From: Gemmatimonadota bacterium
Lineage (GTDB): Bacteria > JAAXHH01
NCBI GenBank assembly: GCA_026706345.1
Contig: JAPOYX010000148.1
Location: forward strand, 1-51,122
Direction: 5' to 3'
DNA: 51,122 nt
Below are positions 12,981 through 16,365 of the stretch, piece after piece (within the stretch, counting starts at the first letter, position 1; each line of letters begins with the position of its first letter). The translations under genes were made by a program, and so were the position numbers. The notes beneath the pieces were generated by a model. That model worked only from the letters and a program-made list of their open reading frames with translations. It did no database searches and was not told the origin of the DNA.

Positions 12981-14054
12981 TTGCAGATCGGCCTCGTCGG
13001 GCTGCCCGGTTCCGGGAAGACCACGTTGTTCAACGCGCTGGTCAGGGCCAATGCGGAGACCGGCGGTTACGCGGGGCAGAACACGGCAAACCGGGGGACG
13101 ATCCGGGTCCCAGACCCGCGTTTGGAACGCCTCTCTAACCTGTTCAATCCACGCAAGACCACTTTCGCCACCGTTGAATACCTCGATATAGGCGGCATTA
13201 CGGCCGGATCGGGACGGCAGGAGGAACAGCAAGGCGCCGGAGGACTCGCCGACCTGCGGACCATGGACGTGCTCGTGCACGTTCTGCGCTGTTTTCCGGA
13301 CCTGGCCGGTACCTCCGGTACACCGGGCAAGGATTTCGAGACGGTGGAACTGGAGCTCGCCATCGCCGATCTCGAGGTCATCGAACGCCGGCTGACCCGC
13401 CTTTCCAAGGAGGCCCGGTCCACGAAGCAACCCGACCTGGTGCGGGAATGGGAACTGCTCGAACAGTGCAGGGAGGAGATCGAGGGCGGCGGGGTCATCC
13501 GGAATCTCGAGTTTTCGCCTGAGGACGAGAAGAGATTGCGCGGCTACCGGTTCCTCTCGCAGAAGCCGGTGCTTCTCGTGCTGAATATCCCCGAGGAAGA
13601 AATCGGCTCGGAAGCGGGCAGACTGGAAGAGTTGGGGAAATTCGCAGAAGAGCTGGATACGCTGGCGCTTTGTGCGAAGGTCGAAATGGAAATCGCCCAG
13701 CTCGACGATGAGGACGCCCGCGGCTTCCTGGACGAACTGGACATCGAGGAATCGGCCCTGAGCCGCATGATCGCCGCCTCGTACCGGTTGCTTAACCTGA
13801 TCTCCTTCTTTACCGTGGGCCAAAACGAGGTGAAGGCCTGGACCGTCACACGGGGCGTTACGGCGCCCGTGGCGGCCGGGACGGTGCACTCCGACATGGA
13901 ACGGGGATTCATCCGGGCCGAGACGCTGGACTGGCAGGCGATGCTCGATCTCGGCGGATGGCAGGCCGCGAAAGAGCAAGGCGCGTTGCGCGTGGAAGGC
14001 AAGCAATACGTCGTCATGGACGGAGACGTGATCAACGTGCGCTTCAGCGTCTGA
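12981..14054 (+). CDS. ychF: Ribosome-binding ATPase YchF/OLA1
   Basis: A 357-residue TRAFAC GTPase-fold protein. The P-loop is GLPGSGKT (residues 7-14). The usual G4 NKxD is replaced by NIPE (from N202), the NxxE form that gives YchF its ATP preference. A coiled-coil insertion (~130-175) and the C-terminal TGS domain (LISFFTVGQNEVKAWTVTRG, GTVHSDMERGFIRAE) complete the family order. YchF associates with ribosomes and modulates leaderless or stress translation. The start is TTG 12981, preceded by GGGAGGA. Confidence 0.95.
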   Translation: MQIGLVGLPGSGKTTLFNALVRANAETGGYAGQNTANRGTIRVPDPRLERLSNLFNPRKTTFATVEYLDIGGITAGSGRQEEQQGAGGLADLRTMDVLVHVLRCFPDLAGTSGTPGKDFETVELELAIADLEVIERRLTRLSKEARSTKQPDLVREWELLEQCREEIEGGGVIRNLEFSPEDEKRLRGYRFLSQKPVLLVLNIPEEEIGSEAGRLEELGKFAEELDTLALCAKVEMEIAQLDDEDARGFLDELDIEESALSRMIAASYRLLNLISFFTVGQNEVKAWTVTRGVTAPVAAGTVHSDMERGFIRAETLDWQAMLDLGGWQAAKEQGALRVEGKQYVVMDGDVINVRFSV

Positions 14055-14134: not shown

Positions 14135-14164
14135 TTGTCAATCCGTACGCAAGGTCGATATCAT
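14135..14164 (+). promoter_or_regulatory. Putative promoter for the thioredoxin-like selenoprotein gene
   Basis: TTGTCA at 14135-14140 and TATCAT at 14159-14164 are spaced 18 bp, placing a start about 55 bases before the ATG at 14227. With the terminator at 14862-14897 this makes the gene a single-gene transcription unit. Confidence 0.55.
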
Positions 14165-14226: not shown

Positions 14227-14805
14227 ATGATGAAAACCCACAACCGCCTCATGACCGCGCTGATCCTGACCGGAGCCCTGTCGTGGGCTTCGCAGGCCGG
14301 CGCTCAGCTCAGCACCAACGCCGGCTTCAATCCGGAACCGCTCAGCCTCGTGGATTTCAAGAAGGCGTTCAACGGCGATACGGGAAAGGTCCGCCTCGTC
14401 GTGATGTTCTCTCCTACCTGAGGCCACTGCATAAGCGGCGCCGGGGCGGTGCAGCAAGAGATACTGAAGAAGTTTCCCTCCGATGACCTCCGGGTCTACG
14501 TGGTCTGGCAGCGGATACTCAGGAACGATGCGGTCAATGCGGCTCAGGCCGCGGCGGAGCAGGTGTTCAGCGACAAGCGGGTAAGCCAGATGTGGGACCC
14601 CGCGAACGCGCTGGGGTTCTGGTACAAGCAGTCGGGGGACCTGGAACACAAGGACCCCATGGTCTGGGACGCCTATTTCCTCTACGGCGCGGATGCCGAG
14701 TGGAAGGACGCGCCTACCGGGCTGATCGACGCCGGTTACACGGTGTGGAATATGAAAGACAGGCTCCTGAAGTCGGTGGCATCGACGATGGAGACCGTAG
14801 ACTGA
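14227..14805 (+). CDS. Secreted thioredoxin-like protein, predicted selenoprotein (UxxC, TGA at codon 65)
   Basis: One continuous reading frame of 193 codons is interrupted only by TGA at 14419-14421. Conceptual readthrough gives 192 residues: a signal peptide (MMKTHNRLMTALILTGALSW, cut near AQA/GAQ), a beta-strand VRLVVMFSPT, then U-G-H-C, which puts the TGA exactly at the first cysteine of a thioredoxin CxxC, followed by a helix and the strand DLRVYVVWQRIL. The protein continues normally to a TGA stop and a strong terminator. An ATAAG-containing hairpin just after the TGA is a candidate SECIS. Selenocysteine in UxxC thioredoxin-fold proteins is well known. The alternative is a pseudogene with Cys-to-stop change (TGC to TGA), but no other lesion is present. 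Selenocysteine machinery is not in this window. Confidence 0.75.
14422..14455 (+). promoter_or_regulatory. Candidate bacterial SECIS hairpin
   Basis: Four bases after the TGA, CACTGC (14425-14430) can pair with GCGGTG (14446-14451) through one G-U, leaving a 15-base GC-rich loop; an alternative CTGCA/TGCAG pairing spans 14427-14454. Loop distance from the UGA (~10-24 nt) overlaps the range known for bacterial SECIS elements. The element is coding sequence as well, and no folding energy was computed. Confidence 0.4.
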
Positions 14806-14861: not shown

Positions 14862-14897
14862 GGGGCGGTTCGTCGGCATGGACCGCCCCTCTTTTTT
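14862..14897 (+). terminator. Rho-independent terminator
   Basis: GGGGCGGT (14862-14869) pairs perfectly with ACCGCCCC (14882-14889) around a 12-base loop and is followed by TCTTTTTT. It ends the thioredoxin-like transcript on the plus strand, facing the convergent aceF. Confidence 0.93.
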
Positions 14898-14967: not shown

Positions 14968-16365
14968 TCATCCCTCCAGGCTGAGGAGGAAGGGTTCCTC
15001 GAAGGCCTGTACCAGCCACTGCATGAAGCGGGCGCCGTCTGCGCCGTCAATGAGCCGGTGATCGTAGGAGATCATCAGCGGCAACATGAGACGCGGCTGG
15101 AACGTCCCGTCTACGTAAACCTGTTCCATGCGGCTGCGGGCGAGGCCCAGGATGGCCACGTCCGGCGCGTTCACGATCGGCGCGAAGAAGGTTCCGCCGA
15201 ACCCGCCCAGGTTCGAGATCGTGAAGGTACCCCCCTGCATATCGTCCGGTGAGAGCTTCCTGTCCCGCGCCTTTGCGGCGACCTCGGACAGTTCTATCGA
15301 AAGCTCGATCATGTTCTTCCGGTCCACGTCCCGGATGACCGGCACGACCAGGCCGCGGTCCGTATCCACCGCCACGCCCACGTGGTAGTACTTCTTGTGG
15401 ATGATCTCGTGCCGGGCCATGTCGACGCTGGCGTTGAACAGGGGAAAACGCTTGAGCGCAGCGGCCACGATCTTCAGGGCGATGGCCGTCATGGTCAGCT
15501 TGCCGCCGGCGGCTTCGGCCGCGGGACCGAACTGCTTGCGCAGGGCCTCCATGTCGGTGACGTCGGCCTTGTCGCCGTAAGTGACGTGGGGGATGTTCGT
15601 CCAGGCGGCGGACAGGTGCTCCGCGGCGGCCCGGCGCAGGCTACTCATCGGCTCGGTTTCCACCGGGCCCCATTTTGAGAAGTCCGGCAGCGAAGCCGGA
15701 GCGGATGGCCTGGGACCGGCAGCGGCGCCCTGGCCGGCGCTCAACTGCCTGGAATGGGCCTTGACATCTTCGACGGAAATCCGTCCTCCGAGACCTCTTC
15801 CGGGCACCTGGGCGATATCGAGCCCGATCTCCCGGGCGAAGCGGCGTACGGAAGGCGCGGCAGGCACGGGCGCCCCTGAAGTGGCCGCTGGAACGACCGG
15901 GGCAGTCGGCGGAGGCGGCGCAGCGGTTTCCTCCGCGGGACCAGTGGCCGCGGCAGGTGGCGCGCTCGTCGCAGGCGGCGCCTGTGGGGCTGAATCCGTG
16001 GCCCCGCCAGCGTCCGCCTCGGCGGCAGGCTTCTCGTCCTTCGACTCCGAAACTTCGGCAGGCGCCTCGGTCTCCGCCTCTCCGTCCGCTTCGGCAGGGG
16101 TCTCGCCGGCTTCCGCGCCCTCCCCCACCCCTTCTTCATACATCAGGACAGGAGCGCCTACCTCGGCCGTCGCACCGTTCTCCACGAGGATTTCCGTCAC
16201 CACCCCGCTGAATCCCGACGGCACCTCGAGGTTGGCCTTGTCGGTCTCGATCTCCAGGACGGGCTGGTTTTCTTCGACTTGATCCCCGACGGCCACCAGG
16301 ATACCCACCACGGTGCCCGCGTCGACGTTCTCACCCAGCGCCGGAAGATTGAAAGGCGTCGCCAT
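14968..16365 (-). CDS. aceF: Pyruvate dehydrogenase E2, dihydrolipoamide acetyltransferase
   Basis: A 465-residue E2 with one lipoyl domain (residues 1-80, lipoyl Lys43 in ETDKANLE), a long Ala/Pro/Glu-rich linker (~80-170), a peripheral-subunit-binding domain (SVRRFAREIGLDIAQVPG, ~172-207), and the catalytic acetyltransferase domain ending with the active-site HRLIDG (His436) and a final EEPFLLSLEG. It transfers acetyl from E1 to CoA. The pairing with a homodimeric AceE and absence of an E3 gene nearby imply that lipoamide dehydrogenase is encoded elsewhere. A good GGGAGACG lies before the ATG. Confidence 0.95.
   Translation of the reverse strand: MATPFNLPALGENVDAGTVVGILVAVGDQVEENQPVLEIETDKANLEVPSGFSGVVTEILVENGATAEVGAPVLMYEEGVGEGAEAGETPAEADGEAETEAPAEVSESKDEKPAAEADAGGATDSAPQAPPATSAPPAAATGPAEETAAPPPPTAPVVPAATSGAPVPAAPSVRRFAREIGLDIAQVPGRGLGGRISVEDVKAHSRQLSAGQGAAAGPRPSAPASLPDFSKWGPVETEPMSSLRRAAAEHLSAAWTNIPHVTYGDKADVTDMEALRKQFGPAAEAAGGKLTMTAIALKIVAAALKRFPLFNASVDMARHEIIHKKYYHVGVAVDTDRGLVVPVIRDVDRKNMIELSIELSEVAAKARDRKLSPDDMQGGTFTISNLGGFGGTFFAPIVNAPDVAILGLARSRMEQVYVDGTFQPRLMLPLMISYDHRLIDGADGARFMQWLVQAFEEPFLLSLEG

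Follow-up and report, generated by a model that had tools for sequence, protein, structure and literature searches.

At 14227 to 14805 of the window (the whole 51,122-nucleotide stretch of DNA analyzed here), a reading frame is interrupted by one TGA, and the question that this locus raises is whether that codon is a lesion, a genuine end of translation or a site of selenocysteine (Sec) insertion. The best explanation overall, to which we assign a probability of roughly 0.9, is an exported selenoprotein of thioredoxin fold that would carry out UxxC redox chemistry in the cell envelope; its export, fold, catalytic chemistry and substrate we infer. The features to which the following sections refer are these:

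12981..14054, + strand: ychF-like GTPase gene, conserved upstream neighbor (synteny; identity from translation)
14135..14164, + strand: sigma-70-like promoter match, TTGTCA-18-TATCAT (10/12 matches, weak evidence)
14227..14805, + strand: putative selenoprotein gene, 192 amino acids with Sec at residue 65, and a TGA stop
14227..14304, + strand: signal-peptide-like segment MMKTHNRLMTALILTGALSWASQAGA (cleavage site by eye)
14419..14421, + strand: in-frame UGA, predicted to be read as selenocysteine, first residue of U-G-H-C (conserved TGA)
14428..14430, + strand: Cys68, UxxC partner of Sec65, invariant in alignment A4 and the sole Cys of the protein
14435..14455, + strand: predicted bSECIS hairpin (folding from behind the TGA, and conservation)
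14862..14889, + strand: strong intrinsic terminator 3' of the selenoprotein gene, 12 pairs then TCTTTTTT
14968..16365, - strand: aceF-like (dihydrolipoamide acyltransferase) gene, convergent downstream neighbor (synteny; identity from translation)

A single frame with a conserved TGA

The original prediction described a single frame of 193 codons whose sole interruption, a TGA, takes the first position of a U-G-H-C motif, with coding sense kept beyond it, and this description was borne out. The only internal stop of the frame is the TGA at codon 65, the terminal codon is also TGA, and the 193 codons correspond to 192 residues plus the stop. The motif around the internal TGA reads SPT-U-GHC, and homologs with Cys align at the same column. 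The gene signals had also been called intact: the strong terminator and the signal-like segment stand, the latter being a hydrophobic N terminus that closes with AGA-Q in the style of a signal peptide (by eye) and stays hydrophobic in relatives, while the promoter match is weak and the start lies at either 14227 or 14230, the second Met being the first residue in most relatives.

A scan of genome contigs yielded eight relatives with 79-92% identity, all eight of which carry the TGA at the same codon. When 16 genomes of the phylum were compared, the gene was found with one TGA in each of the 12 genomes of the same genus, and G013, which represents another genus of the same family, contained a homolog at about 44% identity, again with a TGA, in the motif U-G-R-C. 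Since the TGA has been kept in 12/12 genus genomes and in G013, its presence is not a matter of chance. The gene was absent from G014 and G015, and G001, a third genus, retains a C-terminal remnant only, located after ychF, with unrelated open sequence in place of the N-terminal half.

That the frame contains a stop codon, and that G001 proves decay to be possible, would both fit a pseudogene created by a nonsense mutation. However, the TGA is shared by all intact genus copies, by G013 and by members from four additional lineages, and no stop besides it was found in the 13 copies from the genus and G013. The dN/dS ratio was ~0.16 upstream of the TGA (mature part) versus ~0.19 downstream of it, which indicates purifying selection on both halves, and a search of homologs for decay with further lesions found a decayed homolog in one genome only (G001). 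We regard a pseudogene as highly improbable. On the sequence evidence as a whole, the window gene is almost certainly a genuine selenoprotein gene.

Predicted recoding hairpin and selenium machinery

A bacterial SECIS element (bSECIS) is a hairpin placed right after the UGA, with a G among the first bases of its apical loop. Folding from behind the TGA, where the original prediction had suggested looking, identified a conserved hairpin of this bacterial type. GC at 14435-14436 pairs with 14454-14455, and GCGCCG at 14438-14443 pairs with CGGUGC at 14447-14452, around an apical loop of GGG at 14444-14446; the predicted fold, GC.GCGCCG[GGG]CGGUGC.GC, places this loop 25 nt from the U of the UGA. 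At the hairpin, Rfam gave nothing beyond chance matches. A fold of 14410-14470, which starts before the TGA, produced a different structure with a stability no better than that of shuffles and was set aside.

The 25-nt core behind the TGA, AAGCGGCGCCGGGGCGGTGCAGCAA, is the same in G013 and in every genus member except G012, despite the diverged protein. Between the window gene and G013, codons +5 to +12 are identical in 8/8 cases, compared with 24/63 of the same-amino-acid codons elsewhere (Fisher p = 0.001). Within the genus, the synonymous difference per pair was 0.013 over a 13-codon stretch that begins with the TGA, while in the non-overlapping 13-codon windows used for comparison the lowest value was about 0.08 and most fell at 0.1-0.2. 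In G012, the protein changes from A-V to V-A with the pairs retained (G-C to G-U, and G-U to G-C), and a G-U pair of the hairpin is replaced by A-U between G088 and G358.

A common gapless register holds for seven sequences from four lineages, and in it 95% of cells were paired, versus 26-55% in slid versions; the shuffle control for covariation gave 51/500, with few rows (seven sequences). In all nine TGA copies that were folded, the apical loop begins 20-25 nt from the U of the UGA and has a G within its first two bases, and the same folding placed a hairpin correctly in neither of two Cys copies. The stability of the hairpins in G172 and G340 was not above that of synonymous recodings.

In the window genome, selB scored above cut-off, tRNA-Sec(UCA) lies ~130 bases behind it, and selA is present; selD is fused to the C-terminal side of an NADH-dehydrogenase-like flavoprotein, which was recognized by eye. 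All four components, selA, selB, selD and tRNA-Sec(UCA), were thus found, and the absence of machinery that would speak against Sec insertion was not seen. Across the phylum, selB exceeded its cut-off in 14 of the 16 genomes, as did tRNA-Sec. We propose that SelB and tRNA-Sec, acting with the hairpin immediately downstream, would insert Sec at the UGA at 14419-14421.

Three further loci were recorded alongside this machinery. The SelD fusion is encoded on the minus strand at L059 (G000:C171:1-3000), and its SelD part carries Cys (RCAGCGAKVG). At G000:C59:4436-7807, a selA-like gene (195 bits) and a selD-like gene (100 bits), both below cut-off, lie ~1.3 kb apart; these could either form a second pair linked to selenium or be enzymes of PLP and PurM type with no such connection. 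The G001 remnant is located at L036 / L063 (G001:C102), around 1367-1570, and selB and tRNA-Sec are nonetheless present in that genome.

Relatives, fold and known families

Searches for the family covered 384 genomes across the domain and 80 genomes of one phylum. These revealed six further members with TGA, in G358 and G088 (UGVC), G187 and G389 (UPGC), G172 (UPAC) and G340 (UPFC), together with two members that have Cys at this position, in G384 (L087, CGRC) and in a second gene of G187 (L090, C80, CPRC). Repeating the search with a broader profile gave no additional clear members, and no relative was found in viral contigs, plasmids or phages. Weak profile matches in G104, G244, G134 and others lack the WD motifs, resemble ordinary thioredoxins and were excluded. 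G187 carries both paralogs, at C145:9165-9680 (Sec, UPGC) and C80:5454-5918 (Cys, CPRC). Besides UxxC, the invariant positions include F21, R29, P36, W67, D74, R91, W96, D121, Y126 and W132 (mature numbering).

In the tree, which is rooted at the midpoint only, the two Cys copies group as a clade (100/99), separate from all Sec copies. Read from these sequences, Sec is the common form of the family in several lineages. With Cys carried by a separate clade, the family allows the cost of Sec to be weighed against its gain.

The Cys homologs also bear on two other ways of reading the locus. The mechanical open reading frames on either side of the TGA could represent two products made without readthrough, a 64-residue exported peptide and a 118-residue protein initiated at GTG 14449, yet in the uninterrupted Cys homologs one domain contains both the strand that precedes the TGA position and the helix that follows it, and two separate products would leave the SECIS hairpin unexplained; we consider this just as improbable as a pseudogene. 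Less probable still is a reassignment of TGA to Trp or another residue, for which no support was found: TGA terminates pth, an M20 peptidase gene, ychF, aceF, aceE, a dapA-like gene and the window gene itself, and homologs show Cys, not Trp, at the site.

The thioredoxin fold named in the original prediction is supported by the motif, by weak profile matches and by a low-confidence model. When profile A3 was compared with PDB sequences, the best matches were protein disulfide isomerase, thioredoxin and glutaredoxin, aligned at CxxC, with a best E value of 0.0017. Two AlphaFold models built on a shallow alignment reached a mean pLDDT of 43 and 49; the strand/helix order in these low-confidence models agrees with a thioredoxin fold (beta strand, then CxxC/UxxC, then helix), and their Foldseek matches were not significant. 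The alignment has no conserved Pro where the cis-Pro of thioredoxin is expected, and the Pro preceding the WDAY strand is not kept in L035 and others. Overall, an exported thioredoxin-like redox protein is very probable.

In profile searches, no member reached a Pfam or NCBIfam cut-off for the domain. Like the DsbG-like / Rcas_1661 (seleno)lipoprotein (NF041057) and Thioredoxin_4 (PF13462), the window family is thioredoxin-like with UxxC or CxxC, but it scores far under their cut-offs: the Cys member L090 gave weak matches (21.9 versus 190 bits for NF041057, 17.1 versus 23.2 for PF13462), and the Sec members matched neither. With thioredoxin and protein disulfide isomerase (PF00085, TIGR01126) it shares a CGHC-type motif after a hydrophobic strand and the weak profile matches there; in contrast to them it stays below every cut-off, adds a conserved W-D and W-D-x-Y, and, as judged from the alignment, has no conserved Pro at the cis-Pro site. 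SaoT (NF040730), HUIPC (NF047660), GOS_C (NF045500), TlpA-like (cd02966) and Redoxin (PF08534) are likewise thioredoxin-like with Sec first in UxxC (PMC13188914), but the NCBIfam and Pfam models among them give no match to the window family. A list from 2026 comprises 119 prokaryotic selenoprotein families (PMC13188914), and no entry on it whose searchable domain model could be compared matches the window family; nor was a description of this family found in the literature searched. As judged against Pfam, NCBIfam and the 119-family list, the family is new at the level of sequence, and unnamed NCBI nr entries may exist. The expectation of an unusual redox family is supported, and that family is broader than one lineage, with mercury-transport neighbors elsewhere.

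Mercury-linked relatives and proposed function

In one genus (G358 and G088), the family member closes a MerF-MerT-MerP-like cluster that contains two more TGA-containing genes. The order is ArsR (G358 scan only), a MerF-like gene (by eye), a small CxxC protein, a glutaredoxin-like gene with TGA, MerT, a MerP-like gene and the family member; the cluster lies at 3678-6118 of L094 (G358:C233:8500-20278), with its G088 counterpart at L083. The glutaredoxin-like genes read SSPGUSSC and SSPTUSSC around their TGA, and the MerP-like gene has two TGA codons in a UxxU motif (GMVUGAU), its matches to NF041115 and MerP falling below cut-off and that to the HMA domain above. The MerT match in G358 was below the Pfam cut-off. 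The G389 member is part of one open reading frame that also encodes MerT, an HMA domain and an unknown stretch, the family domain carrying an in-frame TGA. Family members in these three genomes adjoin or are fused to proteins resembling the UxxU protein NF041115, the MerT selenoprotein and the MerT/CopZ fusion NF045683, but the window domain is itself neither MerT nor MerP and is unnamed. The G389 fusion occupies L088 1489-2952 on the minus strand (G389:C33), and the adjoining redoxin/AhpC-like gene lies at L091 5661-6614.

The mer clusters and the fusion point to mercury or soft-metal handling in the lineages of G358, G088 and G389, where the Sec/Cys pair of relatives with MerT and MerP-like domains probably serves to handle periplasmic mercury or some other soft metal. 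By extension, the window protein might work less as a disulfide enzyme than as a soft-metal binder, with Hg(II) captured by Sec65 and Cys68 and then handed on. The relatives that end a mer-like cluster beside a TGA-containing glutaredoxin and a UxxU MerP-like gene, or that sit at the C terminus of a MerT-HMA fusion, favor such a role, but these contexts belong to other lineages, at 30-39% identity. The window gene, by contrast, is a solitary gene flanked by ychF and the convergent aceF, an arrangement found in all eight genome-contig loci compared for the genus, with an aceE-like gene (from translated sequence) beyond aceF, and no mer gene lies beside it at the locus. We consider metal binding as the main role possible but unlikely. 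For the window lineage, the sequence argues for a general redox role and nothing more specific.

In the redox protein that we favor, Sec65 would be the attacking nucleophile and Cys68 the resolving residue of the UxxC site, and the most likely activity of the exported protein would be disulfide exchange or reduction in the cell envelope via a Sec65-Cys68 selenenylsulfide (Se-S) bond. It is a tentative and rather doubtful suggestion that the ancestral job of the family was periplasmic mercury or soft-metal handling by the Sec/Cys pair and that the stand-alone copies of the window lineage keep this job.

Standard gene calling would stop the window protein at residue 64. The mer-linked cluster, with its three TGA-containing genes, makes the use of Sec for mercury binding in transport testable, and, if the ancestral role were as suggested, the ancestral family would have belonged to a mer-type system consisting mostly of selenoproteins.
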